Source: Acidobacteriota bacterium (lineage in GTDB: Bacteria; Acidobacteriota; Vicinamibacteria; Vicinamibacterales; UBA823). Taken from it: a stretch of 64,000 nt of DNA. The notes below the pieces were generated by a model, which had not been told where the DNA came from, searched no databases, and saw only the letters and a program-made list of their open reading frames with translations. The DNA lies in NCBI GenBank assembly GCA_002730525.1, contig PCAK01000012.1:1-64000 (forward strand), read 5' to 3'. A program made the translations under genes and the position numbers. This document shows positions 13,562 to 50,112 of the stretch, piece by piece (positions within the stretch are counted from its first letter, which is position 1; every line of letters begins with the position of its first letter).

Positions 13562-15859
13562 TCAGTGATCCGGACTTGACGGGGGCGCGGCCAGCCGATC
13601 TCCTGCGCTGGCTGGTGCCTCGGTCGGCCAAAGGATCCGCCTGGCGGCGAGTTGAGTCACGAGAAAGACCTCGTTGTGCTCCAGCCGATCGGTTCGTACG
13701 GGGAGCAGCTGCAAGCGGTCGATCACGCCTGGCAGGGCATCGTACGCCCGCTGGGCGTCCGCGAGATCCTGGCTGGAATACTGACGCGAATTCTTCCGCT
13801 CCAGCAGAATCTCTGGGTCGTGATGCAGGTGGAACATCACGGTTGGTCGAGGGATGCGATTCAGACACCATCGTACGACGCGACCACGTGCGATCAACAG
13901 CAAGTCGTAGAAAAATCGGTCGGCGAGCACGACTCTTCCCGAGCGCCCCTTGATAGCCACGAGAAAGCCATACAGGACACTGTCCAGCACGGCCAGCGGG
14001 AGCAGCAGTCGCTCGAGGAGGCTCAGCGATCGGTTAAACCAGTCCGGCACGTCATACCAGTCACGGGGACCTTGTTGCGGCGGAGAGCGTGACTCTGGCT
14101 CTTCAGTTCCGCGACGCGGTGGATCGATCAGCCGCGTATAGATGAGTTTCGCGAGGCCGACGGGTTTCCCGTACGGGATCAGGTACGGGTTCACGCGTCG
14201 GCTACGCAGATTCAACCCGCCCAGGTACAGCGTCAGACAGGGCAGGCCATTCGAACGCAGCACATCCTGCAGCCGCCGGATCATGGTGCTTTTGCCGGCA
14301 CCGTCAGCGCCCACGAACGCCACCAGACGATTGCGTCTTCCCCTCGCCGTCAGCCGTCGGACCGCCCATCGAGCTATCCAAACGAGCGGCCGTGCGGCTG
14401 GATGCAGGACGCCGCGGCGCTCGGCACTGTTCACCCGATACCAGGCATGTCGGAGTCGCTCGCCGGCAGCTGGTGGTCTGCCGGCAAGCCTGGTGACGAG
14501 GCTGGTACGCATCGCGCACACGCTGTCCGGTGTGCCGGTCGCGACGTGGCCGAGCAGAGTCGTCGACGCTTCGGGGCCAACGAGATCGTCCAGCTCAGTC
14601 TTCACTCGACCGATCAGGTCGGCATCGCGGGATCGATCTTGCAGGTGGGTCCAGTACTGCGGTTTGTAGTCGCTCTTGCGAAAGACCGGCTGGAGCAACA
14701 TGAACAGGAAGGTGTCTCGTTGGTTCGGCACGGGGAACCCGTGCTTCCAGGTGCGGTTGGCGACAATCCGACCTAGGTCCAGATACGCGCTCCCCGCCAC
14801 GCTCAGCGCTCCACTGTGGAGCTCGACATAGACAAGTCGGCGATCGGGTGCGCAGTACTTGAAATACTCGCTCGCGGACAGTGCACTGAACCCTTGTCGC
14901 CAGAGGGCAGCGCGCACACGGTCCAGATCTTCCCGACGAATGAAGAGGTCCAGGTCCTTCGGGCGAAACGTGCCGTTCGCCGTCTCCAGGTCGTACTCGC
15001 GACCGAGTGTAAACGCCGCTTCCGATCGCTGCAATTCATCGAGAAACACTCGTACCGTAGCCTGGGATCCGAGGGGCCCGGGCGAGCGGTTCTGCCGCTG
15101 CGACAAGATCGTGGATTCTGCGCAGTGCTGGAGGAATGTCACCTCGTCGTCGACCGGGCTAAGAGAGCTGCTTCGGAAGTCGAGGTCGAGCGTGTGCAGC
15201 GCAGCCTCCGTCACTGTCTCAGACGTGCACCCCGACGAGAACTCTTCGAGGACCCGGTCCAATACGCCTGCTTCGAACGGCACGAGCGCAATGAGGCCGG
15301 CCAGGCACCGCCCGCAATTGAAGCCCAGCGCCCAATCGCTTCTCCATCGCCAGAAGCCAGAGGCGAAACCAATCTGAGCAAGGGTGCCGTCGGCCCTGAG
15401 GATGAGGTGATCCAGTGTCGGAGCGACGGCTGCTGCCCGGGCGGGCTGGCCAGCGACCGCTGTGATGCGACAGAGGAATGCCACCGTTGTGGAAAGAAGC
15501 AGAAGCTGCTCCGCAGGCGCCAGGCCTGCGAGGTGGGGTCCTAGCGGACGGCCGGAGACAAACTCCCGAAGGTAGTACGCGTCACCGCTGGCGACCGGTC
15601 GGGGGGCCAGGTCAGCGGCATGCAACAACCCGATGCCCTCAAACTCTCGCGCCAGCGCATTCCGCACGTCCGAATGTGGTTCCTCTGCGACGAGGGCGGT
15701 GTCGTTTGCAGCCTTCAAGTAGTACTGGCGGCTCGAAGCGTGCAGCTCGGCGGTCAGAAGATCCGCTGCTGCAGCGTGGTTCACCCAGGTGATTTCGAAG
15801 GGACCAATCGTGTTCTCCACGGAGAGCCGTATGGACTTCGGCAGGTCGCGCGGCGACAT
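13562..15859 (-). CDS. fusion: pseudokinase, nucleotidyltransferase-like and NMP-kinase-like domains
   Basis: 765 residues in three parts. Residues 40-225 follow the APH/kinase fold, but where H-G-D and I-D-F are expected the sequence reads APTLDHLILRADG and AQIGFASG, so catalytic His/Asp and metal Asp are missing: a pseudokinase. Residues 275-395 resemble the NTP_transf_5-type nucleotidyltransferases, with PKDLDLFI (Asp302, Asp304) and YVELHSG. Residues 510-740 form a thymidylate-kinase-like P-loop domain with VGADGAGKST (517-525) and LADRFFYD. Substrates are unknown. It lies 6 bases after an ABC exporter gene, so the two are one unit and may prepare or gate a nucleotide- or phosphate-linked substrate for export (inference). 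Confidence 0.72.
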   Translation of the reverse strand: MSPRDLPKSIRLSVENTIGPFEITWVNHAAAADLLTAELHASSRQYYLKAANDTALVAEEPHSDVRNALAREFEGIGLLHAADLAPRPVASGDAYYLREFVSGRPLGPHLAGLAPAEQLLLLSTTVAFLCRITAVAGQPARAAAVAPTLDHLILRADGTLAQIGFASGFWRWRSDWALGFNCGRCLAGLIALVPFEAGVLDRVLEEFSSGCTSETVTEAALHTLDLDFRSSSLSPVDDEVTFLQHCAESTILSQRQNRSPGPLGSQATVRVFLDELQRSEAAFTLGREYDLETANGTFRPKDLDLFIRREDLDRVRAALWRQGFSALSASEYFKYCAPDRRLVYVELHSGALSVAGSAYLDLGRIVANRTWKHGFPVPNQRDTFLFMLLQPVFRKSDYKPQYWTHLQDRSRDADLIGRVKTELDDLVGPEASTTLLGHVATGTPDSVCAMRTSLVTRLAGRPPAAGERLRHAWYRVNSAERRGVLHPAARPLVWIARWAVRRLTARGRRNRLVAFVGADGAGKSTMIRRLQDVLRSNGLPCLTLYLGGLNLRSRRVNPYLIPYGKPVGLAKLIYTRLIDPPRRGTEEPESRSPPQQGPRDWYDVPDWFNRSLSLLERLLLPLAVLDSVLYGFLVAIKGRSGRVVLADRFFYDLLLIARGRVVRWCLNRIPRPTVMFHLHHDPEILLERKNSRQYSSQDLADAQRAYDALPGVIDRLQLLPVRTDRLEHNEVFLVTQLAARRILWPTEAPASAGDRLAAPPSSPDH

Positions 15860-24386: not shown

Positions 24387-24983
24387 ATGGAGAAGCCCGA
24401 TCGGGAGATCGTCGTCCGTCGAGACCTGCGGGTGCTGGAGGCGGTTGCCGAGAACCAGCGGATCACCCAGCGCGGGCTGGCCAATCAGCTCGGCATCGCG
24501 CTGGGATTGGCGAACCTGTATCTCAAGCGGCTCGTGCGCAAGGGGTACATCAAGTGCATCAACGTTCGACCGAATCGGATCCGGTATCTTCTCACCCCGA
24601 AGGGGGTCTCCGAGAAAGCGCGCCTGACCTGCGAGTACATGGAGCATTCGCTGTCCCTCTACCGCGGGGTCCGGCAGTATCTCAGCATCGTGCTTCAGCC
24701 ATACGTTGAAGCCGGCCCCAAGGCGATTGCCCTCTACGGCGTCGGCGAGGCGGCGGAACTCGCCTATCTGTCGCTCAAGGAGTTGGGTCTCGAGCCGGCC
24801 GCGATTTTTTCCGACGAGGGGGACCGAGAGTTTCTTGGGATGCCCGTCCAGGACGTCCGGCAGCACACCCGCGTCGACTTCGACTTGATGCTGGTGGCGA
24901 CCCTCGAGCACGCCGAGCCGCTGCTTGAGAAGCTCATCAACCACGGGATCCCGGAAGTGAAGCTCCTTCCTCTGCGCCGGTAG
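24387..24983 (+). CDS. EPS-associated MarR/winged-helix regulator with C-terminal Rossmann-like domain
   Basis: Residues 1-95 match the EPS-associated MarR-type family: a helix-turn-helix (TQRGLANQLGIALGLANLYL), the wing VRKGYIKCINVRPNRIRYLL, then LTPKGVSEKARLT. Residues 100-198 are an extra domain that begins IALYGVGEAAELAYLSL, like a nucleotide- or sugar-binding Rossmann fold, and that the short family members lack. It may sense a nucleotide sugar (inference). ATG 24387 is chosen because upstream sequence in the open frame is not protein-like. It is the first gene of the 27-kb plus-strand run, 8 bases before the cytidylyltransferase gene. Confidence 0.78.
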   Translation: MEKPDREIVVRRDLRVLEAVAENQRITQRGLANQLGIALGLANLYLKRLVRKGYIKCINVRPNRIRYLLTPKGVSEKARLTCEYMEHSLSLYRGVRQYLSIVLQPYVEAGPKAIALYGVGEAAELAYLSLKELGLEPAAIFSDEGDREFLGMPVQDVRQHTRVDFDLMLVATLEHAEPLLEKLINHGIPEVKLLPLRR

Positions 24984-24991
24984 CCGTCACG

Positions 24992-25735
24992 ATGGCGTCT
25001 GATCGGATTCTGGCTGTAACGCTTGCCCGCGGAGGATCGAAGAGCGTGCCAAACAAGAACATCAGGCCGATCTTCGGCGTGCCGCTGCTCGGCTACACGA
25101 TCGCCGAGGCGAAGCGGAGTCGCTACATTACGCGGTATCTCGTGTCTACGGACTCGGAGGACATTCGTCGGATCGCGATTCGGTACGAGGCGGAAGTCCC
25201 ATTCTTGCGGCCGGCCGATCTCGCCAGTGACACGGCCAGCTCCGTCGCGGCGCTGCAGCACGCGGTCGGGTGGGCAGAGGCCGATGAGGGACAGCGCTAC
25301 GACTACGTCGTGGAATTGATGTGCACGAATCCGATGAAGACCGTCGACGACATCGATGCGGCGATCGACAAGCTTGTGTCGACTGGGGCGGATTCCGTCA
25401 TCGGGATGTGCCGGTTGGCGGATCATCACCCGATCCGGATCAAGAAAATCGTCGACGACCGGATCGTCGATTTTGCGCTTCCGGAGACGCCGGAATCGCG
25501 GCGACAGGATCTGAAACCCGACGCCTACATCCGCAACGGGTCGATCTACGCGCTGCGCCGCGACGTGCTGATGGTGCAAGGCCGACGGTACGGGACCCCG
25601 CACAGTCGCCCGCACATCATGCCGCTGGATCGTTCGATCAACGTGGACTCGCCCGTGGACTTCGTCGTGGCCGAGGCCCTCTTCAAGGCACACCCTCGGC
25701 CGTATGTGGCGCGTTTGGCTGATCTCGAGGCATGA
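24992..25735 (+). CDS. acylneuraminate cytidylyltransferase-like enzyme
   Basis: Predicted to activate a nonulosonic or related 2-keto acid sugar with CTP. The signature LARGGSKSVPNKNI binds the nucleotide, and VSTDSEDI, RPADLASDTASS and the late acidic motif are in place. At 247 residues it is the usual NeuA/PseF/LegF size. CMP-sialate, pseudaminate, legionaminate and KDN enzymes cannot be told apart by eye. It is followed 3 bases later by a 2-hydroxyacid dehydrogenase, then a second cytidylyltransferase-like gene and a NeuB-like synthase. Confidence 0.82.
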   Translation: MASDRILAVTLARGGSKSVPNKNIRPIFGVPLLGYTIAEAKRSRYITRYLVSTDSEDIRRIAIRYEAEVPFLRPADLASDTASSVAALQHAVGWAEADEGQRYDYVVELMCTNPMKTVDDIDAAIDKLVSTGADSVIGMCRLADHHPIRIKKIVDDRIVDFALPETPESRRQDLKPDAYIRNGSIYALRRDVLMVQGRRYGTPHSRPHIMPLDRSINVDSPVDFVVAEALFKAHPRPYVARLADLEA

Positions 25736-25738
25736 CGG

Positions 25739-26749
25739 ATGACGGAGCAGTCGGTCAACCCGTCGACGCGGCCGAAGATCCTGGTCATCACGCCGGTGCA
25801 TCACATCGAGGGGGTCGCCGCGCTCCTCGAGAGCTTCGCTGAGGTGACGTACTTGCCGGATCCTACGCCTCAGGATGTGATGTGCGACGTGACCGATCAG
25901 GACGCCGTGTTCACGAATCCGAACAGATCGGACGTGTTCATCGGCCGAGACGTGATGGACGCTGGACACGCCCTGAAGGCGGTTTGCACCGCGTCCACCG
26001 GCACAAATCACATCGACGCCGGCTGTGCGGCTGAGCGAGGTATCCGCATCCTGTCGCTCACGGAACAGCGAGACGTCATCACCAAGATTTCATCGACCGC
26101 CGAGCACGCACTGGCCCTGATGCTGGCGGCCCTCCGGCACCTGCCACAGGCGGCGGAATCTGTGAAACGCGGCGAATGGGACTACACACGCTTCATCGGG
26201 CGACAGGTCGACCATTTGACCGTTGGGGTGGTCGGGTACGGACGGCTCGGCACCTACTTCGCTCGCTATGTGAACGCGCTCGGCAGTCGCGTCCTTGTCT
26301 ATGATCCGTATGTCACTGTTGAGGATGCGTCTTTGGCACAGGTCGAGCTTGATCAACTGCTCGGCGAGGCCGACATCATTAGCCTGCATGTGCATGTCAC
26401 GCCGGAGACGACGCGGATGGTGGACAAGAGTTGGTTCGAGCGGATGAAGCCGTCGATGGTGCTGGTGAATACGTCGCGTGGCGAGATTATTGACGAAGTC
26501 GATCTCATCGCGTTCCTCGACGCGACGCCTGGCGCCATGCTGGCGGCCGATGTCGTCTCGGGAGAGGTCAGCGCCAAGCGGTCCAGTCCACTGATTGACT
26601 ACGCTCGCTCGGCCTCGAACGTGATTCTGACCCCGCATCTGGGCGGGATGACGGTCGAGGGCCAGCAGATGGCGTACATGCATGCGGGGCGGCAACTTCA
26701 ACGCTTTTTCGCTGAGTCTGATTCGAGGCCACCGGCGCCAGAACGATGA
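25739..26749 (+). CDS. D-2-hydroxyacid dehydrogenase (SerA-like)
   Basis: NAD-dependent oxidoreductase of 2-keto/2-hydroxy acids. Residues 155-170 carry the nucleotide site GVVGYGRLGTYFARY; NTSRGEIIDE holds the catalytic Arg and TPHLGGMT the catalytic His. Length 336 is normal, without the C-terminal ACT domain of regulated SerA. It lies between two cytidylyltransferase-like genes and overlaps the second by 4 bases, which is unusual for housekeeping serine synthesis. It may act on a keto-acid sugar or its precursor (inference). Confidence 0.82.
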   Translation: MTEQSVNPSTRPKILVITPVHHIEGVAALLESFAEVTYLPDPTPQDVMCDVTDQDAVFTNPNRSDVFIGRDVMDAGHALKAVCTASTGTNHIDAGCAAERGIRILSLTEQRDVITKISSTAEHALALMLAALRHLPQAAESVKRGEWDYTRFIGRQVDHLTVGVVGYGRLGTYFARYVNALGSRVLVYDPYVTVEDASLAQVELDQLLGEADIISLHVHVTPETTRMVDKSWFERMKPSMVLVNTSRGEIIDEVDLIAFLDATPGAMLAADVVSGEVSAKRSSPLIDYARSASNVILTPHLGGMTVEGQQMAYMHAGRQLQRFFAESDSRPPAPER

Positions 26750-27459
26750 GTTTTCTGAGCCAATCGGTCGTTGCGGTCATCCCGATCTCGGAGGCGGATA
26801 CCGATTTCGCGGGTGGTCAGATGCCGCAGTTGGGCGGTCGAGCACTGTTGGAATACACGTTCCGCGCCGCCCGAGAATCGCGATTGGTGGATCGGCTGAT
26901 CGTGTCAACCGACAGCGCCAGAATCGCGGAAACGTGCAAGGCAAGTGGCATCGACGCACCGTTCGTCCGCCCGCCCGAACTGGCCAACCCGAACGTTCCG
27001 ATCACCGAGGTGCTGCGCTACACCCTGGAATGGCTGCGCGAACACGAACACACCGAGCCCGACTGGGTGGCGATGTTGTCGGTCACCTATCCCTTTCGGC
27101 CGAAGGGCTTCGTCGATGCGTTCATTCAGACCGTGTTGCCGGAGGATCTCGATTCAGCATTCGCCGCGATCGAGGAACGGCACTCGCACTGGGTGCTGCG
27201 CGAGGGCGAGCAGCCAGAACTCGTGTCGTTCGGTGCCGATGTCGCCAAGGCCCACAGGCGGCCCTTGTTTCGAGAACTGAGCGGACTGATGTCGATGGCC
27301 AAACGCGAGACGATTCTCGCTGGAAATTTGTACGGACAGAAGTTGGCCATTATTCCGGCGCATGATGCCCGGTCCACCGTCAACGTCCACGACCCGATCG
27401 GCCATCAATTTGCGGAGTTACTTGCCCCTCGGTTTCTCGAGAATGATCGGGTGGAGTGA
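26746..27459 (+). CDS. divergent cytidylyltransferase-like protein lacking the N-terminal signature
   Basis: Aligns along its length with NeuA-type enzymes: IVSTDSARIAE, RPPELANPNVPITEVL and VTYPFRPKGFVDAF. But where ARGGSK-x-x-P-x-K-N should stand it reads VVAVIPISEADTDFAGGQM, so the Arg/Lys that bind the nucleotide phosphates are lost. It may be inactive, regulatory, or specific for another nucleotide. It overlaps its neighbours by 4 bases on both sides (ATGA each), so it is maintained in the operon. Confidence 0.68.
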   Translation: MSFLSQSVVAVIPISEADTDFAGGQMPQLGGRALLEYTFRAARESRLVDRLIVSTDSARIAETCKASGIDAPFVRPPELANPNVPITEVLRYTLEWLREHEHTEPDWVAMLSVTYPFRPKGFVDAFIQTVLPEDLDSAFAAIEERHSHWVLREGEQPELVSFGADVAKAHRRPLFRELSGLMSMAKRETILAGNLYGQKLAIIPAHDARSTVNVHDPIGHQFAELLAPRFLENDRVE

Positions 27460-28511
27460 TGTCGACGCCATTTGAGATCAGCGGCACTGGGATCGGGCCC
27501 GGGTGTCCCTGTTTCGTCATCGCGGAAGCGGGTTTGAACCACAACGGGAATCTGGAGTGGGCCAAGCGTCTCGTCGACGTGGCGGCCACGGCGGGCGCCG
27601 ACGCGGTCAAGTTTCAGAAACGGACCGTCGAGGACCTGGCGACGAGGTCGGTACTGGATGCAGTGGACGATCGGTTCCCGGCGTTCGGGCAGACGTATCG
27701 CGAAATCCGAGAGCACCTGGAATTCGGCTGGGATGAGTATGTGGAGCTCAAGAGCCACTGCGACCAACGGCAGATCACTTTCTTGTGCACGGCGTTCGAC
27801 ATTCCCGCGGCGAGCTTCCTGGAACGGCTCGAAGTGCCGGGTTACAAAGTCGCCAGTCACAGCCTGACCAACCTTCCACTGCTCGAATACCTCGCGGCTC
27901 GAGGGCGACCCGTCGTCATGTCGACCGGCATGTGCACGCTCGAGGAGATCGATGACGCTGTCGGCATGTTCCGAGACAGCGACACCCGTTTGGCGCTCAT
28001 GCACTGTGTGTCGTCGTACCCCCAGCCGGCAGAAGAGTCGAATCTAGGGATGGTCGCGGAACTGCGCGACCGGTACGGCCTGCCGGTCGGCTATTCCGGG
28101 CACGAGTTGGGCTATCTGCCGACGCTCGCCAGTGTGGCGCTGGGCGCCGATCTCGTCGAGCGCCATGTGACGCTTGATCGTTCCGCGGCCGGTTTCGACC
28201 ATCGCCTTTCGTTGGAGCCCGATGAATTGTCGGAGATGATCCAGTCGATTCGAACGGTTGAGCTCGCCACGCGCCCAGCGGCGAAATCCATCTCCGAGAC
28301 GGAAATGATTACGCGCAGAAAATACCAGGCCTCCATCGTGGCTGCGCGTGACATCGGTGCCGGGGAGACGATTACAGAAGCCATGTTGACCCTCAAGAAT
28401 CCGGGCACCGGTCTTCCGGCGCGCCGAATGACCGAGGTGGCCGGAAATAAGGCCAAGGTCTTCATCCCCGCGGACACGCTACTCGACCTCCAGATGGTGG
28501 AGCGCGATTGA
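27456..28511 (+). CDS. neuB: N-acetylneuraminate synthase-like (NeuB family) with SAF domain
   Basis: Condenses phosphoenolpyruvate with a hexose-derived aldehyde to make a 2-keto-3-deoxy sugar acid. TIM-barrel features: FVIAEAGLNHNG at the start, DAVKFQKR, CVSSYPQPAEESN, GYSGHELGYLP and ERHVTLDRSAAGFDHRLSL. A C-terminal SAF (antifreeze-like) domain spans about residues 285-351 (SIVAARDIGAGETIT). 351 residues, complete. No UDP-GlcNAc 2-epimerase or other precursor enzyme of the known sialic, legionaminic or pseudaminic routes lies next to it, so the substrate is uncertain. Confidence 0.87.
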   Translation: MMSTPFEISGTGIGPGCPCFVIAEAGLNHNGNLEWAKRLVDVAATAGADAVKFQKRTVEDLATRSVLDAVDDRFPAFGQTYREIREHLEFGWDEYVELKSHCDQRQITFLCTAFDIPAASFLERLEVPGYKVASHSLTNLPLLEYLAARGRPVVMSTGMCTLEEIDDAVGMFRDSDTRLALMHCVSSYPQPAEESNLGMVAELRDRYGLPVGYSGHELGYLPTLASVALGADLVERHVTLDRSAAGFDHRLSLEPDELSEMIQSIRTVELATRPAAKSISETEMITRRKYQASIVAARDIGAGETITEAMLTLKNPGTGLPARRMTEVAGNKAKVFIPADTLLDLQMVERD

Positions 28512-28521
28512 CACGAGGCTG

Positions 28522-29310
28522 ATGCCAGACCGAGTCAGTGACATCAAGCCGTGGCTCTTTCTCGATTCAGCGCCGCAGGCCCCCCCAACTGTCTCATCGT
28601 GGACCGAGTTTGCGGATGATCTTGCGGGCTGGGTCTGCTCTGAACGCGTGGGCGAGCACCTTCCCAGCGATGCTCACTGGGTCTGCAGTGCCAGCACCGA
28701 GACCGAACTACGCGATTGGCTCCTGCACGATCGTGACGTCTTCGTTCCCGCTGACTTGGCGGAAGGTCTTGGGTTGCTGAGCGACAGGGCTGGGGCCTTC
28801 CGTGGCTCGCTGTGGCTCGAAGACAGCTATGTGGCTCGGTACCTGGTGGCGAATCAGCCCACGGCTCCCATCGGTCTGGTCGGGACGACTCCCGATCGAG
28901 GCCGGCTGGTGTCGCACGTTCGCTATGCCTTCATGTTCGCCGAAGGCACCGAGGCGGCGACCCTGTCAGCGGCACTCCAGCTCGGTGCGGAGAGCGTCTG
29001 GCTGCGCGCGTCAAGCACCTTGGACCTTCAACAGCACCTTCGACGGATCGCAGATGTGGCAGAGGCGGCGGACCTGGCGTCGCTGTTCGGCGCTCTGCCG
29101 GCTGAGTTGGAGCGGACCTGGCAGCGGCGGTTGTGCCTCGCGGCGGCCCGCGCGCTGCCGGCCGGTCATCAACTCAGCGAGACCGACCTGATTCACTTGC
29201 CGGCTTCGGGCGCCCTGTCAGCCGAACTAAGGCACAAGGTCATCGGAAGACGCCTGAGGTACCCGCTTGCACCCGACGCGGTCCTGACGTTCGGGGTGCT
29301 CGAATGCTAG
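28522..29310 (+). CDS. unknown protein with C-terminal SAF-like domain, possible degenerate NeuB paralogue
   Basis: 262 residues, family not recognised. The C-terminus (about 195-262) reads like a SAF domain: RRLCLAAARALPAGHQLSE, then ELRHKVIGRRLRYPLAPDAV. The part before it (LSAALQLGAESVWLRAS, then DLQQHLRRIADV) aligns loosely with the end of the neighbouring NeuB barrel (LASVALGADLVERHVT, DELSEMIQSIRTV). The rest of the barrel, including the PEP and metal-binding residues, is not visible. It may have arisen by duplication and shrinkage of NeuB (inference). It starts 10 bases after NeuB and overlaps the next gene by 7. Confidence 0.6.
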   Translation: MPDRVSDIKPWLFLDSAPQAPPTVSSWTEFADDLAGWVCSERVGEHLPSDAHWVCSASTETELRDWLLHDRDVFVPADLAEGLGLLSDRAGAFRGSLWLEDSYVARYLVANQPTAPIGLVGTTPDRGRLVSHVRYAFMFAEGTEAATLSAALQLGAESVWLRASSTLDLQQHLRRIADVAEAADLASLFGALPAELERTWQRRLCLAAARALPAGHQLSETDLIHLPASGALSAELRHKVIGRRLRYPLAPDAVLTFGVLEC

Positions 29311-29984
29311 TCTCCGTCGTCATCCGCACGAGAAATGAAGCCGAGTGGATCGGCCGCTGTCTGTTCGCCGTAGCGAACCAGTCCTTGGCCGATTTTGAAA
29401 TCGTGCTCGTCGACAATCAAAGTACGGACGAGACCCTCCAGATCGCGAGCTCGCATGACCTGAAGGTGGTGACGGTTCCAACGCGGGAGTTTACGTTCGG
29501 CCGAGCGCTCAATGCCGGTATCGAACGTGCGTCAGGCCGCTACGTCGCGATTGTGTCGGGCCACTGCGTGCCGCGCGACAACTACTGGCTGGCCAAGCTG
29601 CTCGGTAACTTTCAGGATCCCTCGGTTGCCGGCGTCTACGGTCGGCAGGAGCCGCTTCCGGATAGCAGCGATCTTGACAAGCGTGATCTGTGGACCACGT
29701 TCGGCATCGAACGTCGCGTTCAGTCCAGGGATTACTTCTTTCACAACGCGAACAGCATGATCCGAAGAAGTGTCTGGGCCCGACATCCATTCAACGAAGA
29801 GTTGAATGGTCTCGAAGACCGGATGTGGGCGAAGCAGGTCGTCGCAGAAGGACAGGTCATCGTGTACGAGCCGCTGGCCTCGGTCTTTCATCATCACGGT
29901 ATCCACCAGGGTCGCGACGAAAAGCGGGCTGAACGCGTTGTCCGAGTGATCGAAATGAAGCTCAACAGCGACCAGCGAATCTGA
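29304..29984 (+). CDS. GT2 glycosyltransferase
   Basis: A compact GT-A enzyme of 226 residues: VSVVIRTRNEAEWIGRCL, then VDNQSTDETL, then a GRYVAIVSGHCVP region where the usual DxD is replaced by S-G-H. Later DRMWAKQVV supplies acidic residues. The ATG at 29304 overlaps the preceding stop (ATGCTAG); a longer frame from 29133 lies inside the previous gene. It probably adds one sugar to the growing unit. It has no membrane anchor. Confidence 0.78.
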   Translation: MLVSVVIRTRNEAEWIGRCLFAVANQSLADFEIVLVDNQSTDETLQIASSHDLKVVTVPTREFTFGRALNAGIERASGRYVAIVSGHCVPRDNYWLAKLLGNFQDPSVAGVYGRQEPLPDSSDLDKRDLWTTFGIERRVQSRDYFFHNANSMIRRSVWARHPFNEELNGLEDRMWAKQVVAEGQVIVYEPLASVFHHHGIHQGRDEKRAERVVRVIEMKLNSDQRI

Positions 29985-31879
29985 TGCAGGCCGACGCCAG
30001 AGCCAGTGTATTCATCTACCGGGGGATCCTGCCCGACGGGGACTTGCCTGGCGCTATGGGCCGCGAGCACCGGCAGGTCGTTGTCAATTTCTCTCAAGAC
30101 ATCTTCGCCGACGAGCTTTTTGGGCCAGGGATGTCGGTCACTCTCTACGGCCACTACCTGCCCGTCCACGAAGGTGAGCAACTGCTCGACCAAGCCCGCA
30201 CTCTTGGTCACCAGTGGTTTGAGGGGTTGCCGGAAGACTCTTACGTCTACGACGGAGTTTCGCTCGGTGAGGTCACGGCATACGATTTCGTCATCGTCCT
30301 GGTGGAGGTACTCAAGAGTTTGCGGTTGGCCGAGCGGATCATCGAGGCGGAGCAGCCGGTTCGGATCGTTCTCGTAGACGATGGCAGCGTCGTGATTCGA
30401 GCGTTTCGGGCGGTTTGTCGTGCCAAGGGCATCGAATTCCTCACTCTACCAGCGGAGTTGCCTAGTGGCCGCCTGCTGGTCGAGCAGCCTGCGCTGCTGA
30501 CCTGGACGAAGATCGCGCTCGGCAAGTGTTTCGTCGAGGTGTGTCGCTTGATCGAGGCGTGCCGTCCGGGTTCGCGCGCGCGCCTACGTGTTCTGCTCCC
30601 TCAATACTTCCGGTTCAAGGTGCTTGTCAGGGGCCTTGCGGCCGATCCGAAGTTCGAGGTCAACGTGGTCGGAGGGTCCCACAAGTCTATCTTTGGGAGC
30701 TTCGTTCGGAGAGGCTCCGTTCGGTATCTCCCCTCGCTGGGTTACTTGCGCCTCAAACAGGCGGTGGCCGTCGCACGCTATCGGCGCAGACTACAGGGAT
30801 GCTTGGATGACCTCGACGCTGTAGCGAGTCAGGGGCCGCACTTCGATGGCTACCCACTCCTTGAGATCTGTCGCCACCTTGTCGACGAACATTTGCGTCG
30901 CAGGTTCGTCAATTACGCGGCCTTCGTCGAAATCTCGAAGGCCGTCCTGATCCGTGAACGGATCACCCATGTGATCGTCAATCAGGACATTCAGGGCTAT
31001 CAGCGGATCCTCTGCCTGGTCGCGAACGCACTTGGCGTGAAGACGATCTGCTACCAGCATGGCTTGTCGCCGAAGATTCCCACGATCGCCACACACATCT
31101 CGGAGACTGTTGCGGTCTGGGGCGAACGTGAGCGCGACCTGTATCTGGAGATCGGTCACGCCTCTGCCGACCAGATACAGGTCATTGGCGACCCCTTCCT
31201 CGCGAACCTCAGCCGGCAGCAGTTCGACCGCGAATCGATTTGCCGTCGTTTGGGGCTTGATCCGGCGCGGCCCGTGATTCTGATGCCGTGCGAGCGGTAC
31301 GTGAATTTTCATGCCCCGTGGGAGCGCGAGACGACGGCGAATGAACGACTGGCCGAGGCATGTGAAGCGCTTAGCCGGCGGCCCGAGGCACAGCTCCTCG
31401 TACGGTTCAAGGCGGACTTTCTCTACGCGGAGTTTGGCGGCAGTGTGGCCACGCAACACCGAATCATCGAGCGATTCGATCGTGGCAACATCCACCTCGA
31501 TTCTGGAGGTGATATCTACGAGCGGTTGTATATCGCCGACATTGTTGTGGTGACGATCTCGACCATCGGGCTGGAGGCGATGATGTTCGGCAAGCCAGTC
31601 ATCGTGTTCGCGGACGGCGCAGATCCTGACCTCGTCGGATACGTTGAGGCCGGCGCCGCGGTGCTTGCCAGAACGAGCACCGAGTTTCAGACGGCCGTGA
31701 ACGAGTGCCTGGAGAGCGAAGCACTTCGCGCGAGGCTGCGACCAGCTCAACAACGGTTTGTGGAATTCAACTTCGCCAACCTGAACGATCCGGATCCGTT
31801 GGCGCCTTTGCGCGACCTTCTCACGCAAGGGCAGGCGGCGCGGCATGACAGCCCTCACCAGGCGACGAGGGCATCGTGA
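29984..31879 (+). CDS. GT-B capsule-type glycosyltransferase (CDP-glycerol/polysialyl-transferase-like)
   Basis: 631 residues, GT-B-like. The second half has VKTICYQHGLSPKIPTIATH (a His-containing acceptor-facing motif), WGERERDLYL, then IGDPFLANL, RPVILMPCER and the donor-binding stretch ADIVVVTISTIGLEAMMFGKP. This layout resembles CDP-glycerol glycerophosphotransferases and other capsule transferases that use CDP- or CMP-linked donors. With CMP-sugar genes just upstream, it is my best candidate for the enzyme that transfers the NeuB-derived sugar (inference). TGATG overlap with the preceding gene. Confidence 0.62.
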   Translation: MQADARASVFIYRGILPDGDLPGAMGREHRQVVVNFSQDIFADELFGPGMSVTLYGHYLPVHEGEQLLDQARTLGHQWFEGLPEDSYVYDGVSLGEVTAYDFVIVLVEVLKSLRLAERIIEAEQPVRIVLVDDGSVVIRAFRAVCRAKGIEFLTLPAELPSGRLLVEQPALLTWTKIALGKCFVEVCRLIEACRPGSRARLRVLLPQYFRFKVLVRGLAADPKFEVNVVGGSHKSIFGSFVRRGSVRYLPSLGYLRLKQAVAVARYRRRLQGCLDDLDAVASQGPHFDGYPLLEICRHLVDEHLRRRFVNYAAFVEISKAVLIRERITHVIVNQDIQGYQRILCLVANALGVKTICYQHGLSPKIPTIATHISETVAVWGERERDLYLEIGHASADQIQVIGDPFLANLSRQQFDRESICRRLGLDPARPVILMPCERYVNFHAPWERETTANERLAEACEALSRRPEAQLLVRFKADFLYAEFGGSVATQHRIIERFDRGNIHLDSGGDIYERLYIADIVVVTISTIGLEAMMFGKPVIVFADGADPDLVGYVEAGAAVLARTSTEFQTAVNECLESEALRARLRPAQQRFVEFNFANLNDPDPLAPLRDLLTQGQAARHDSPHQATRAS

Positions 31880-45193: not shown

Positions 45194-46312
45194 ATGAACA
45201 AAGGTGCACCCGGGACCCGTCCGACGCGCATCCTGGCGCTGACGACGAATCCAGCTGACGGCGCAAGCACGCGCTTCAGGGTGCTTCAGTGGCAGCCTTT
45301 TCTGGAGGGGGCGGGATTCAGTCTCCAGGTCGAGCCGTTCTACCCGCAGACGGCGTCGCGCGTTCTGTACCGCAAAGGAAAGTCGGCGGCCAAGCTCGCA
45401 CACTTCGTCGTCGCGGCCATGCGGCGGCTCCGGGTTCTCGGGAGCTTGAATCGCTCCGCCGATCTGCTCTTGATTCACCGGGAGGCCTTTCCGCTAGGCT
45501 GGCGGGTCTGGTTCAGCCGGCTGCGGAGATTCGACGGGCCGGTTGTCTACGACTACGACGATGCGATGTTCCTGCCCCAGCGGCTGGAGCGCAAGATTCT
45601 GGCGCGCGTGGAGCGAGTGGACACGCCTGCCAGGGTCATGGGACGGAGCGATTTGGTGCTGGCGGGTAATTCGTTCCTTGCCGACTACGCCCGAGCACAT
45701 GCCTCGCGCGTCCTCACCCTTCCGACGTGCATTGACACCTCGAAATTTCGGCCGCGCGCCCAGAACGGATCCGGTACATCACCTGTCATCGGCTGGATCG
45801 GCAGCCATACGACGTCAAAATACTTGAGGCGTTGTCTGCCGATGCTTCAGCAGGTCGCTGCGGAGCACCGCTTCGAGATGTACGTCGTGGGCAGCTCTGA
45901 ACCCCTTTCGTCCGGACGGGTGGAGATGACACAGGTGGACTGGAGTCTCGAACGAGAGGTGGAAGATTTCCAGCGGTGCGATATTGGCATCTACCCGCTG
46001 TCGGACGACGAATGGAGTCTCGGCAAGTGTGGTTTCAAGGCCATTCAGTTCATGGCATGTGGCGTCCCGGTTGTGGCCGAGGCCGTCGGCGTCAATCGTG
46101 ACATCGTGGACGATGGCGTGAACGGGTTTCTGGTGTCGACTGAGGATGAGTGGAAACGGAAGCTCGGCCTTCTTGTGGCCGATCCGGCGCTGCGAACACG
46201 GCTCGGCGCGGCGGGTCGCCAGACCGTCGAGCAGCGCTTCTCGGTCACGGCGAATGCGCCTCGGCTGATCGCCGCGCTCGAGGCAGTGAGAGACCGCGTG
46301 CGCGCGAGTTAG
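45194..46312 (+). CDS. GT4-like glycosyltransferase
   Basis: 372 residues, GT-B. N-terminal TTNPADGASTRFRVLQW is typical of a GT4 subgroup found in EPS loci. Donor domain: VIGWIGSHTTSKYLRR and KCGFKAIQFMACGVPVVAEAVG, where Gln stands in place of the last Glu of E-x7-E, a known variant in this subgroup as I recall it. Coupled loosely (14 bases) to the asparagine-synthase-like gene. Confidence 0.8.
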   Translation: MNKGAPGTRPTRILALTTNPADGASTRFRVLQWQPFLEGAGFSLQVEPFYPQTASRVLYRKGKSAAKLAHFVVAAMRRLRVLGSLNRSADLLLIHREAFPLGWRVWFSRLRRFDGPVVYDYDDAMFLPQRLERKILARVERVDTPARVMGRSDLVLAGNSFLADYARAHASRVLTLPTCIDTSKFRPRAQNGSGTSPVIGWIGSHTTSKYLRRCLPMLQQVAAEHRFEMYVVGSSEPLSSGRVEMTQVDWSLEREVEDFQRCDIGIYPLSDDEWSLGKCGFKAIQFMACGVPVVAEAVGVNRDIVDDGVNGFLVSTEDEWKRKLGLLVADPALRTRLGAAGRQTVEQRFSVTANAPRLIAALEAVRDRVRAS

Positions 46313-46326
46313 CGGTTTTCGATCTT

Positions 46327-48261
46327 ATGTGTGGCATTTGTGGTGAGATTCGGTTCGCGCGTGAAGGACGCGTGAACTCCGATCTGATCAAGGCGATGCG
46401 CGAACAACTCGTCCATCGAGGTCCCGATGATTCCGGGCTCTTTGTGTCCGCGGACGGTCAGGTTGGTTTGGGTTTCCGCCGCCTGCGGATCGTCGACCTG
46501 AGCGCAAGCGCCAACCAACCGCTCACCAACGAAGATGGCTCGATCCAGCTCGTGTTCAACGGCGAGGTCTACAATTTCCAGGCTCTGCGCCGACAACTCC
46601 TCGCTCATGGGCATCAATTCCGGTCACACTCGGACGCCGAGGTCATCGTCCACCTGTACGAGGAGCAGGGCACCGATTGTCTCCGCGACTTGGAAGGGAT
46701 GTTCGCGTTCGCGATTTGGGATCAACGCACCGAACGGTTGATCCTGGCTCGCGATCGGGCCGGCAAGAAGCCGCTCTTCTACTATCGGTCAGCGGATCGG
46801 CTGGTCTTTGCGTCAGAGATCAAGTCGTTCTTCGCGCACCCGGAGATTCCCACGGAGATCGACCCTGGGGCGATTCCGTATTACTTCCTCTATGGCTACG
46901 TTCCCTGCCCCGACACGTTCTATCGCGGCGTCAAGCAGTTGGAGCCCGCGACGGTGCTCGCCTTCGAACGCGACGGGACGGTGCACTCGGAGGCGTACTG
47001 GCAGCTACAGTATCCGGCACGAAATCGCGTGGCGCCGTCACCGACGATCGGGAGCCAGGAAGCGAGTGGGCGGATCCGCTCGCTCCTCACGGAGGCCGTC
47101 GAGCGTCGCCTGGTCAGTGACGTGCCCATCGGAGCGTTTCTGAGCGGAGGAGTCGATTCGACCATCGTCGTGGGGTTGATGAGCCGCCTGATGAGCGAAC
47201 CGGTGAAAACCTTCAGTATCGGCTTCGAGGGCGATCCCGCGTACGACGAGACGAGGTATGCGCGGCTGGTTGCCGAACGGTTTGGCACCGACCACACGGA
47301 GTTCATCGTCAAGCCGTCGGCCGTCGATCTAGTCGAGAAGCTGATCTGGCATCATGATGGGCCGTTCGGCGACGCGTCGGCCGTGCCGACTTACATCGTC
47401 TCGCAACTGACCCGGCAGCATGTGACCGTCGTGCTGAACGGCGACGGTGGCGATGAAGTGTTCGCGGGCTACAAGCGATTCTATGCCAGTGTGGTGTCGG
47501 AGAAGATTCCGCCGACGGTTGGCCGGGGCCTCGATGCGGTGCTGTCACGCATCCCGCCCCCTGCCAGCGATAGGCATTGGGTGGCCCTCGCCCAACGGTT
47601 CGCCTCAGCCATGAACCTGCCCTTCTACGAGCGGATCACCCGCTGGATCAGCCTGTTCTATGAAGATCTGGAACACCTGATCGCTCCCGAACTCTTTCAT
47701 GCTGGCTTCGACCGCTTGCGCTACCTGGACGCTGAACGCGAACAAATGGAGGGCCTCTCCACGCTGGGCAAAGTGTTGCACGCGAATTTCAAGTTCTATT
47801 TGCTCAACGACCTACTGGTCAAGATGGATCGCTGCGCGATGGCGAACTCCCTTGAAGCGAGGTCCCCGTTCTTGGACACGGCGCTCGTAGACTATGTGGC
47901 GACGTTGCCGGACGCCATGAAATTGAGGGCAGGGAAGACGAAAGTGATCCTGCGGGAGGCGTTCGCGGATCTGCTTCCTTCCGAGGTCTCTCGCCGAGGG
48001 AAGATGGGCTTCGGCGTTCCCCTGGGCACCTGGTTTCGGCATGAGCTGCGCGATTATTTGGCGGATCTCTTGTTGTCGAGCAACGCGCGCTATAGAACGT
48101 ATCTGTCTGCGCCATACGTCCACGCCCTCGTGAAACGCCATCAGGCGGGCACGACCAACGCTGGTCTCCAGCTGTGGAGTCTGCTGTGCTTCGAGCTCTG
48201 GCTGCAGGCGTTGCCCGGCTGGACGCGTCCCAACGTGGCTCCGGTCGTCGGGTCGCGGTGA
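46327..48261 (+). CDS. asnB: asparagine synthase (glutamine-hydrolysing)-like amidotransferase
   Basis: 644 residues with complete AsnB architecture. N-terminal glutaminase domain begins MCGICG with Cys2 as the nucleophile, followed by HRGPDDSGLF and FNGEVYNF; the synthetase domain has the ATP PP-loop SGGVDSTIVVGL and NGDGGDEVFAGY. ATG 46327 exposes Cys2 after Met removal, so the longer frame (46150) is rejected. In EPS clusters these enzymes usually amidate uronic acids or other carboxylates of the glycan rather than make free asparagine (family knowledge). Confidence 0.88.
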   Translation: MCGICGEIRFAREGRVNSDLIKAMREQLVHRGPDDSGLFVSADGQVGLGFRRLRIVDLSASANQPLTNEDGSIQLVFNGEVYNFQALRRQLLAHGHQFRSHSDAEVIVHLYEEQGTDCLRDLEGMFAFAIWDQRTERLILARDRAGKKPLFYYRSADRLVFASEIKSFFAHPEIPTEIDPGAIPYYFLYGYVPCPDTFYRGVKQLEPATVLAFERDGTVHSEAYWQLQYPARNRVAPSPTIGSQEASGRIRSLLTEAVERRLVSDVPIGAFLSGGVDSTIVVGLMSRLMSEPVKTFSIGFEGDPAYDETRYARLVAERFGTDHTEFIVKPSAVDLVEKLIWHHDGPFGDASAVPTYIVSQLTRQHVTVVLNGDGGDEVFAGYKRFYASVVSEKIPPTVGRGLDAVLSRIPPPASDRHWVALAQRFASAMNLPFYERITRWISLFYEDLEHLIAPELFHAGFDRLRYLDAEREQMEGLSTLGKVLHANFKFYLLNDLLVKMDRCAMANSLEARSPFLDTALVDYVATLPDAMKLRAGKTKVILREAFADLLPSEVSRRGKMGFGVPLGTWFRHELRDYLADLLLSSNARYRTYLSAPYVHALVKRHQAGTTNAGLQLWSLLCFELWLQALPGWTRPNVAPVVGSR

Positions 48262-48309: not shown

Positions 48310-50112
48310 ATGGTGCCGTATCCGACCATCGCTGCTCATTTTTTGACCGCATCCGCGACGTCGCTGGTGCTGGTCTGGCTCTGTCGCACGGTTGCGCTCA
48401 GACTAGGCTGCGTCGCCCAGCCGGGCGAGGACCGTTGGCATAGCCAGCCAACGGCGCTGTTCGGCGGCGTCGCGATCGGGGTGACCGTCTTCGGGTGCCT
48501 CGCGCTCGTGGGCGACGCCTGGCAACCTGCGGCCCTGCTCGTCTGTGCGGCTTCGATTTTCATCGTGGGCTTGGTCGACGATGTTCAACCGCTCAAGCCG
48601 TTTACCAAGCTCATCATTGAGATCGCGCTCGCATCCGTTCTTCTGTTCTTCGACTATCGACTCGACTGGACGGGTTCGCTGACCGTCGACAGTCTGTTGA
48701 CGGTCGCTTGGATCGTTGGCATCACGAATGCGTTCAATCTGCTCGACAACATGGACGGGTTGTGTGCGGGCGTCGCATTGATCGCCGGAGTGACGTTGTT
48801 GACGGCGCTCCGGGGTGACCCTGAAGCGAGCTCGGAGGCGGTCTATCTCACACTCCTGCTCGGGGCCATCGCCGGGTTCCTGGTGTACAATTTTCATCCC
48901 GCATCCATCTTCATGGGCGATAGCGGCAGCCTGTTCATCGGCCTCAGTCTTGCTGCGCTGACGTTGTCAGCCGAAGGTGGGGCGGGGGACGGGTCGAACG
49001 TGCTGACGATCGTGCTGGCTCCAGCACTTGTGCTCCTGGTCCCGATCTTCGACACGACGCTGGTCACGCTGTCACGGCTCCGCTCCGGGCGCAGTGCGGC
49101 CGAGGGTGGGCGAGATCACTCGTCCCATCGACTCGTCGCGATTGGCTTGTCCGAGCGGGTTGCGGTCGCGGTCCTCTGGACACTCGCGGCGCTGGCCGGT
49201 CTGATCGGATTGGCGGTTCGGGCTGTCAGCCCAGACTGGGCCGGGCTCCTCGCGGCGATATTCGTCCTGGCGATGGTGATTTTCGCGGTCTACCTCGCTC
49301 AGGTTCGGGTCTATGAGGATGTGGATGAGACGACCATCAGGAGCGGAGCGATCACCCCCTTCGTCGTGAACTTCGTGTACAAGCGCCGGATCGCCGAGGT
49401 GCTGCTCGACGTCTGCCTCGTCTCCATCGCGTACTACGCGGCGTATCGGCTCCGCTTCGAAGGTCTGGAGTATTTAGAGTATTTCCCGAGCTTCTTGGAA
49501 TCGTTGCCTGTGGTGCTGGGCGTGCAGATGGTTACGCTCTATCTCGTCGGTGGATACAGAGGCGTCTGGCGCTATTTCGGCCTGATGGACGGCGTTGTCT
49601 TTGCCAAGAGCGTGATGTTCGGGACGCTGAGCAGCGTGTTCATCATCGTCTTCGTCTACCGGTTCGAGAGCTACTCACGGGGCGTGTTCGTGGTTTACGC
49701 GGCACTGTTGATGCTCTCGCTGATCGGATCGCGAGCCTCGTTCAGGCTCATCAGCGAGTTCGTGCAACGCCGCCGACACACGGGAGAACGGCTGGTCATC
49801 TATGGCGCGGGCGATGGAGGGGCGGTCGCTGTCCGGGAGCTGCTCAGCCGGCCCGGCCTCTCTTACAAGATGGTCGGGTTCATCGATGATGACTCGGCGA
49901 AGCAGCAAGCGCGGATCCAGGGGTACCCGGTGGTGGGAGACTACGAAGCGTTGGCCGCGCTGGTGTCAGCCGCTGCGGTCGATCGGATAGTGATCAGCAC
50001 AAGAGCGATCGACTCGGCGCGGTTGCAGAAGCTGGAGGCCTTGTGCGGCGAGCACGGCGTCGGGCTATCACGGTTTCATTTTGATTTCGAAGATGTCGTC
50101 ACCGTGTCGTAG
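48310..50112 (+). CDS. fusion: WecA/TagO-type initiating transferase with FlaA1/CapD-type N-terminal domain
   Basis: Residues 1-335: polyprenyl-phosphate GlcNAc/HexNAc-1-phosphate transferase with the family's Asp-Asp (VGLVDD, 90-91), FNLLDNMDGL (142-151), FMGDSGS (201-207) and the H-x2-H-R loop (270-274). This starts repeat-unit assembly on undecaprenyl phosphate. Residues 355-600: four spans ending with RGVWRYFGL, and a Rossmann half-domain (VIYGAGDGG, 496-504) like the N-terminal part of FlaA1/CapD/WbpM dehydratases. The catalytic SDR domain that should follow is absent; the protein stops after 600 residues. The appended part may be regulatory or localising (inference). Confidence 0.85.
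   Translation: MVPYPTIAAHFLTASATSLVLVWLCRTVALRLGCVAQPGEDRWHSQPTALFGGVAIGVTVFGCLALVGDAWQPAALLVCAASIFIVGLVDDVQPLKPFTKLIIEIALASVLLFFDYRLDWTGSLTVDSLLTVAWIVGITNAFNLLDNMDGLCAGVALIAGVTLLTALRGDPEASSEAVYLTLLLGAIAGFLVYNFHPASIFMGDSGSLFIGLSLAALTLSAEGGAGDGSNVLTIVLAPALVLLVPIFDTTLVTLSRLRSGRSAAEGGRDHSSHRLVAIGLSERVAVAVLWTLAALAGLIGLAVRAVSPDWAGLLAAIFVLAMVIFAVYLAQVRVYEDVDETTIRSGAITPFVVNFVYKRRIAEVLLDVCLVSIAYYAAYRLRFEGLEYLEYFPSFLESLPVVLGVQMVTLYLVGGYRGVWRYFGLMDGVVFAKSVMFGTLSSVFIIVFVYRFESYSRGVFVVYAALLMLSLIGSRASFRLISEFVQRRRHTGERLVIYGAGDGGAVAVRELLSRPGLSYKMVGFIDDDSAKQQARIQGYPVVGDYEALAALVSAAAVDRIVISTRAIDSARLQKLEALCGEHGVGLSRFHFDFEDVVTVS

Follow-up and report, generated by a model that had tools for sequence, protein, structure and literature searches.

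A six-gene unit in a surface-polysaccharide locus

The window analysed here is the whole 64,000-nucleotide stretch of an Acidobacteriota genome (contig PCAK01000012.1), and the system in question is an operon on its plus strand that encodes enzymes of the nonulosonic-acid type, two degenerate copies of such enzymes and a glycosyltransferase. An earlier sequence-only reading had placed five open reading frames (ORFs) at 24992-29310. All five were confirmed at these coordinates, in the order given and with Pfam matches: a canonical cytidine monophosphate (CMP)-ulosonate synthetase with an ARGGSK loop (NeuA1, gene 1, 24992..25735), a D-2-hydroxyacid dehydrogenase (gene 2, 25739..26749), a NeuA paralogue without this phosphate loop (NeuA2, gene 3, 26746..27459), an intact NeuB with a SAF domain (gene 4, 27456..28511), and a pseudo-NeuB with a C-terminal SAF domain at about residues 200-262 and a degenerate remainder (gene 5, 28522..29310). 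The limits of the unit had been drawn too short, as a GT2 glycosyltransferase gene (29304..29984) follows directly after gene 5 and is part of the unit, of which it forms the hub. Neighbouring genes in the plus-strand run 24992-31879 are separated by short gaps or overlap, and the surroundings constitute a long surface-polysaccharide locus.

The canonical NeuA1 matched CTP_transf_3 in the Pfam and NCBIfam searches (2.3e-18), and its similarity to PseF stayed under the equivalog cut-off (130.9 of 205.7 bits). An alignment to Neisseria meningitidis NeuA showed the loop A-R-G-G-S-K followed by K21-N22. The residues K21, N22, R71, R165 and D211 are kept, with substitutions of D209 by N and of Q104 by M. 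The dehydrogenase belongs to 2-Hacid_dh_C (PF02826, 4.4e-47) and contains the GYGRLG Rossmann motif as well as the motifs SRGE and HLGG. The intact NeuB matched PF03102 (1.5e-78) and SAF (5.6e-10), and it keeps E25, N29, K53, K129, H215, H236 and D247 of N. meningitidis NeuB, with N instead of R at position 314. It also scored under the equivalog cut-offs for NeuB_NnaB (324.7 of 399.7 bits) and PseI (250.4 of 340.3 bits).

The sequence-only reading had further stated that the usual precursor genes are missing, which agrees with the present results. None of the 2-epimerase, aminotransferase, acetyltransferase and hydrolase precursor genes was found among the proteins scanned in 8.3-46.3 kb, and no match above cut-off to a UDP-GlcNAc 2-epimerase (NeuC type, Epimerase_2) occurred anywhere in the genome, which is 99% complete (3.3 Mb in 45 contigs, with the window on contig 12). 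Aminotransferases of the DegT type do occur in the genome, one of them on the same contig at 72.3 kb, beside a short-chain dehydrogenase/reductase. This gene, the nearest strong DegT match, lies about 43 kb downstream of the operon and outside the window, and no link to the operon was seen. A location of the precursor genes just outside the locus was therefore discarded as an explanation.

The glycosyltransferase and its fusion to NeuA2

The GT2 contains the GT-A N-terminal nucleotide-binding domain PF00535 (2.7e-27) and is 51-61% identical to its closest relatives in other phyla. Its DxD site is replaced by SGH, which aligns with DCD of K4 chondroitin polymerase. A GT2 profile scan of about 85,000 species genomes yielded 170 relatives, the best 80 of which were analysed together with the window. 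Because the resulting 81 loci were picked by GT2 similarity, the counts given for them are not unbiased frequencies. The loci come from 14 named phyla, four of them having no phylum assigned, and a scan of viral contigs gave no relatives. A loop-less NeuA is found near the GT2 in 79 of the 81 loci, fused to it in 64 and encoded by a separate gene in 15, the two loci without it being L120 and the archaeal L061. A canonical NeuA is present within 6.5 kb of the GT2 in 68 of the loci.

The structure predicted for one fused homologue (L112) has a mean predicted local distance difference test score (pLDDT) of 93.6 and a predicted template modelling score (pTM) of 0.89. In a fold search its N-terminal half matched GT2 enzymes, and its C-terminal half matched CMP-Kdn, CMP-sialate and CMP-pseudaminate synthetases with TM scores of 0.73-0.85 on the target and a root mean square deviation of approximately 2-4. 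No solved structure that combines GT2 and NeuA was present among the fold-search matches listed. The GT2 half of the fusion is far better conserved than the NeuA2 half.

More distant GT2 proteins occur in other settings. On the Thalassovita plasmid pAge77 (L148:4001-8636), a GT2 with SGH is followed by a cytidylyltransferase, a phosphoglycerate-dehydrogenase-like protein, GalE and MptE-like (possibly Maf-type) proteins, with neither NeuA2 nor NeuB in the stretch. Another locus (L057:3463-7286) combines a KdsB-like cytidylyltransferase and a 2-hydroxyacid dehydrogenase with a GT2 that is fused to a zinc alcohol dehydrogenase.

NeuA2 is a pseudo-enzyme family under purifying selection

In NeuA2 of the window, the CTP_transf_3 match (PF02348, 1.3e-8) is confined to residues 26-77. 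The protein reads I-S-E-A-D-T..G-Q at the position of the ARGGSK loop, so that the triphosphate loop R12-K16-K21 is gone, and the cytosine-binding arginine R71 is kept. Aligned to N. meningitidis NeuA, all 62 fused NeuA2 domains lack the phosphate-loop columns 14-21, and the separate NeuA2 genes likewise have no loop. In the same alignment A-R-x-G-S and K21 are retained in 79/79 canonical NeuA proteins, a figure that is partly circular since A-R and S were also in the pattern used to sort these rows. The fused domains keep R71 in 61 of 62 cases and R165 in 48 of 62, and the metal-site residue D209 in just three. At the position where the enzymes have Q-P-T-S-P-L-R, NeuA2 shows a conserved motif of its own, E-x-T-[YH]-P-F/V-R.

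A phylogeny of NeuA proteins, a check that the sequence-only reading had proposed, placed NeuA2 in one clade apart from canonical NeuA. The tree of 147 rows was a quick search with support from the Shimodaira-Hasegawa-like approximate likelihood ratio test (SH-aLRT) only. The fused domains form one side of a branch with 97% support, and fused and separate NeuA2 together (72 rows) form one side of a branch with 95% support. The ratio of nonsynonymous to synonymous substitution rates (dN/dS) was 0.03-0.20 in the pairs tested. NeuA2 is thus a single pseudo-enzyme family under purifying selection.

In structures of CMP-sialate synthetase, R71 contacts the cytosine, N22 the ribose and residues 12-21 the phosphates (PMC6580227), and docking together with mutation has assigned R165 to the carboxylate of sialate (PMC2901514). 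Since the loop for the beta and gamma phosphates is lost and the cytosine-reading arginine is mostly kept, NeuA2 appears suited to holding a CMP-sugar, and it looks like a binder of CMP or a CMP-sugar that would be unable to use CTP.

Decay of NeuB to a SAF domain

The SAF match of gene 5 (7e-4, 20.5 bits) falls marginally under the 21-bit cut-off. None of the alignable catalytic residues of N. meningitidis NeuB is kept, the metal ligands are absent, and SAF alone is recognizable. The structural model of gene 5 has a confident fold in the last 60 residues only (pLDDT 93-98), with most of the rest below 60, and identity to any aligned relative is 13-29%. As a query for relatives gene 5 by itself gave weak SAF matches at best, the loop-less NeuA and the GT2 being the useful handles.

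The gene position is a recurrent one. In 15 of 17 unfused loci the GT2 is preceded by a NeuB relative or a SAF protein, which in L065 is a degenerate NeuB fused to the N terminus of the GT2. Different degrees of decay are represented. The NeuB before the GT2 is intact in L061, a full-length pseudo-NeuB with the changes H215N, H236S and K129A has lost metal ligands in L059 and L060, further decay is seen in L058, L041 and L064, and in L062 and gene 5 the protein is mostly lost. Nisaea and relatives carry a SAF protein of 167-190 residues at the position of the NeuB remnant. Pfam recognized SAF in L062 (6e-6), and the match in L066, like that of gene 5, fell slightly under the cut-off. The dN/dS values were 0.085 for the pseudo-NeuB pair L059/L060, 0.17 for the SAF proteins of L066/L067 and 0.35 for L041/L064. 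Loci that combine the NeuB variant with the fusion have a solitary intact NeuB, in most cases with no degenerate copy.

The SAF domain of NeuB caps the active site of the partner subunit (PMC6795526), and its persistence where the barrel has decayed would at least fit a lasting function in binding or docking.

The archaeal locus L061 (L061:8842-11409), from a metagenome-assembled genome deposited as Euryarchaeota SM23-78, has an intact NeuB, the GT2 and an intact NeuA in a row. This order is what an ancestral layout would show, and L061 possibly retains that layout of the module.

Pathway variants and the mosaic nature of the window

The biosynthetic genes around the GT2 fall into three variants, with families assigned by Pfam. 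Variant A combines NeuB with a 2-hydroxyacid dehydrogenase (11 of the 81 loci, the window included), variant B has a DAHP synthase (37 loci, 27 of which also carry a shikimate-dehydrogenase relative and, as a rule, a Gfo/Idh protein), and variant C has an Ldh_2 dehydrogenase (18 loci). A further 15 loci are not assigned to a variant.

The trio of NeuA1, dehydrogenase and NeuB is present in 10 loci besides the window, from four to five phyla. The window proteins are 60-70% (NeuA1), 52-63% (dehydrogenase) and 53-58% (NeuB) identical to those of the other variant A loci, the compared loci being from Magnetococcales, Gallionellales, Nitrospira, Bacteroidetes and Thermodesulfobacteriota, and identity falls to approximately 32-43% beyond these loci. 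The proteins thus form a coherent set, with the dehydrogenase as a constant member of one pathway variant. A search for the arrangement elsewhere had also been proposed by the sequence-only reading, and both this trio and the sets of GT2 and NeuA2 recur across phyla more than by chance. That reading had linked the dehydrogenase to reduction of a keto acid, which is plausible as a predicted activity.

Two unrelated dehydrogenase families, 2-Hacid_dh and Ldh_2, are found around the same transferase, and a relative of lactate racemase (LarA) lies inside a variant B cluster (L129:3730-5058, also L043). To judge from these families, the combination suggests that a 2-hydroxy/2-keto acid step is real. 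The replacement of NeuB by DAHP synthase suggests that the aldose substrate may come from central metabolism, and this would account for the absence of precursor genes.

A tree of the GT2 proteins has two blocks, unfused (18 rows) and fused (64 rows), each with 99% support. The variant labels require six changes on this tree versus 28 in shuffles, which means that transferase and pathway type mostly go together. The window is an exception. Its trio is of variant A, yet its GT2, NeuA2 and gene 5 group with the unfused block, whereas all other variant A GT2 proteins are in the fused block. The window is a mosaic of a NeuB-type trio and an unfused transfer set.

Additional fusions were observed among the biosynthetic genes. 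In two Pelagibacteraceae loci (L100:8236-9978 and L134:2145-3893) the canonical NeuA is fused to an S-adenosylmethionine-dependent methyltransferase, a family that is also present in a related Acidobacteria locus (L040/L058). A protein of about 730 residues with Gfo/Idh/MocA-like and shikimate-dehydrogenase-like parts adjoins the module in L041:4305-6494 and L042:10485-12677.

A putative CMP-ulosonate transferase with pseudo-enzyme subunits

The sequence-only reading had suggested that each degenerate copy is the non-catalytic partner of its intact paralogue. That the copies are more than random decay held up, as they recur across phyla, NeuA2 forms a clade, and dN/dS is about 0.03-0.35. The partner, however, appears to be a different one. 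NeuA2 is fused to the GT2 in 64 of the 81 loci, as is a degenerate NeuB in L065. The degenerate genes thus very probably belong with the GT2 as its conserved partners, and in the window, where the proteins are separate, they would form a complex with it.

The operon would then produce a CMP-activated 3-deoxy-2-ulosonic acid, an acidic sugar like sialic acid or Kdo, and transfer it to a cell-surface polysaccharide. NeuB would join phosphoenolpyruvate (PEP) to an aldose that is probably a central metabolite, because no precursor genes travel with NeuB. The dehydrogenase would oxidize or reduce a 2-hydroxy/2-keto group of the precursor or the product, and NeuA1 would form the CMP ester. The GT2 would be the transferase, with NeuA2 and gene 5 as its non-catalytic subunits. 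NeuA2 would hold the CMP-sugar, which its ancestor used to make, and offer it to the GT2, and the SAF remnant may contact the sugar or serve as a scaffold. We give the predicted transfer of a CMP-activated ulosonic acid by this assembly a slightly better than even chance. As a generalization we put forward, with less confidence, a widespread class of GT2 enzymes that work with a pseudo-CMP-ulosonate synthetase, in most cases as a fusion, one branch also having a pseudo-ulosonate synthase. In this class the donor would be held by a former enzyme that still binds its product and is no longer catalytic.

Several observations weigh against this proposal. The wider GT2 group without NeuA2 also carries the replaced motif (SGH in L148, SAH in L147), which means that SGH is no specific evidence for a CMP donor, and it was dropped as a signature of one. 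R71 is missing from the separate NeuA2 of several Alphaproteobacteria, which rules out cytidine binding as a universal property. For the barrel of gene 5, neither sequence nor model demonstrates an origin from NeuB, and the fused loci mostly lack a NeuB remnant, so that the remnant is not essential to the transferase in general. Most Ldh_2-type loci have no PEP-aldol synthase next to the module, and their sugar may differ or come from elsewhere. GT2 enzymes are also not known to use CMP sugars.

This leads to the question of which other roles would account for the degenerate genes. The GT2 might transfer a different sugar, with the ulosonic acid as the acceptor and NeuA2 and the SAF protein as acceptor-recognition modules. 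The retention of R165, ascribed to the ulosonate carboxylate (PMC2901514), in most fused NeuA2 domains would fit such a role, as would the use of nucleotide diphosphate sugars by relatives of the GT2 fold. The cytosine-reading R71 is stricter still, however, and points to a CMP ligand, and in L061 the GT2 sits between NeuB and NeuA with no other recognized transferase directly adjacent, so we regard this role as unlikely. Heteromers of NeuA2 and gene 5 with the intact NeuA1 and NeuB, which they would regulate or stabilize, are conceivable because the intact copies are in the same operon and because both CMP-sialate synthetase (PMC6580227) and NeuB (PMC6795526) are dimers in which the partner completes the active site. 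Yet the fusions seen for NeuA2 and the NeuB remnant are to the GT2 and none to an intact paralogue, and the DAHP-synthase loci L058, L041 and L064 have a NeuB remnant with no intact NeuB in the stretch. The location of the fusions thus disfavours partnership with the intact paralogues, which we consider somewhat less likely still.

A new catalytic function of NeuA2, such as sugar transfer from the CMP-ulosonate with the GT2 as a second transferase or a scaffold, could draw on the relatedness of the NeuA and GT-A folds and on the motif E-x-T-[YH]-P-F/V-R. With the metal-site aspartates mostly lost and the GT2 half far better conserved, it is very unlikely. Random decay of duplicated genes would account for the lost catalytic residues and for the low identity of gene 5 to its aligned relatives, but it is hardly credible for open reading frames that form one clade across phyla, have dN/dS values well below 1 and a high-confidence SAF fold, and are repeatedly fused to, or placed beside, the same GT2. 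It was rejected on the basis of dN/dS, trees and fusions.

Relation to known systems

The proposed CMP-ulosonate transferase shares with the sialic, legionaminic and pseudaminic acid pathways (NeuB/LegI/PseI and NeuA/LegF/PseF) an intact NeuB-SAF protein and a CMP-transferase in one operon within a surface-polysaccharide locus. Unlike these, the window lacks the 2-epimerase, aminotransferase, N-acetyltransferase and hydrolase and has a fixed 2-hydroxyacid dehydrogenase, an extra loop-less NeuA and a SAF-only NeuB, and both intact enzymes score under the equivalog cut-offs for the Neu and Pse families. NeuA2 resembles CMP-ulosonate synthetases (PF02348; 1eyr, 6ifd, 9t4z, 9ftc) in its fold, as modelled in L112, and in the cytosine-binding arginine, but it has no triphosphate loop, usually no metal-site residues, and is tied to a GT2. 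The GT2 in turn has the GT-A fold and N-terminal motifs of SpsA, K4 chondroitin polymerase and WrtF, but differs in SGH and in the near-constant company of a pseudo-NeuA. The Cj1143-type protein of Campylobacter jejuni is a fusion of a GalNAc-transferase to a CMP-Neu5Ac synthetase (a literature search returned no text on it). It is similar in joining a glycosyltransferase to a NeuA domain, but its synthetase is active and its transferase belongs to another family, whereas NeuA2 has no catalytic loop.

Clusters with DAHP synthase, shikimate dehydrogenase and Gfo/Idh proteins in Pelagibacter, Prochlorococcus, Marinomonas and others have the same GT2-NeuA2 unit and a canonical NeuA, and differ from the window in the PEP-aldol synthase and the oxidoreductases. 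In the open-access papers searched, no description was found of GT2-NeuA fusions, pseudo-cytidylyltransferases, dehydrogenase-containing ulosonate clusters or the DAHP-synthase variant.

If the prediction holds, the GT2 would to our knowledge be the first to use a CMP-activated ulosonic acid, and the transferase would have turned duplicated enzymes of its own pathway into specificity subunits. It would be a clean natural case of enzymes becoming binding subunits of the next step in their own pathway, with intermediates preserved: intact enzymes in an archaeon, a barrel with lost ligands, a bare SAF domain, and fusions. It is still difficult to spot bacterial ulosonic acid transferases from sequence, and GT2-NeuA2 would then be a marker for a large group of unrecognized ulosonate-bearing surface glycans. 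Carriers of the module include the abundant marine bacteria Pelagibacter and Prochlorococcus. The observation of degenerate paralogues has become a directly testable complex.

Distribution in the phylum and genome setting

Three genomes of the order (G009, G012 and G043) gave close relatives of gene 3, and in all three the GT2 adjoins NeuA2 and a NeuB-like protein precedes the GT2. A fourth genome (G113) encodes GT2 and NeuA2 as a single protein of 462 residues. Overall, the GT2 was detected in 6 of 161 genomes of the order, with strong matches (at least 53% identity) beyond the window in these four only, and it passed in 8 of 396 genomes of the phylum, with a gap in scores between about 385 and 188 bits. 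The module is absent from a congener (G001). It is sporadic and was probably transferred. The same-order loci L058 and L064 are deposited as Acidobacteria and Vicinamibacterales.

Directly upstream of NeuA1 lies a gene for a MarR_EPS-like winged-helix regulator (24405..24983, plus strand, start uncertain), which is 60% identical to the regulator at the head of the related locus L058/L040. Elsewhere in the window, a 765-residue protein encoded on the minus strand (13562-15859) has an NTP_transf_5 domain and a weak thymidylate-kinase-like P-loop match. An asparagine-synthase-like amidotransferase (46150-48261) is nearest to an XrtA/PEP-CTERM model, below its cut-off (580.9 of 816.9 bits). The single ORF at 48310-50112 contains a WecA-like polyprenyl-phosphate GlcNAc-1-P transferase (residues 16-333) and a WcaJ-like sugar transferase (residues 365-585), and thus two types of phosphoglycosyl transferase within one protein.

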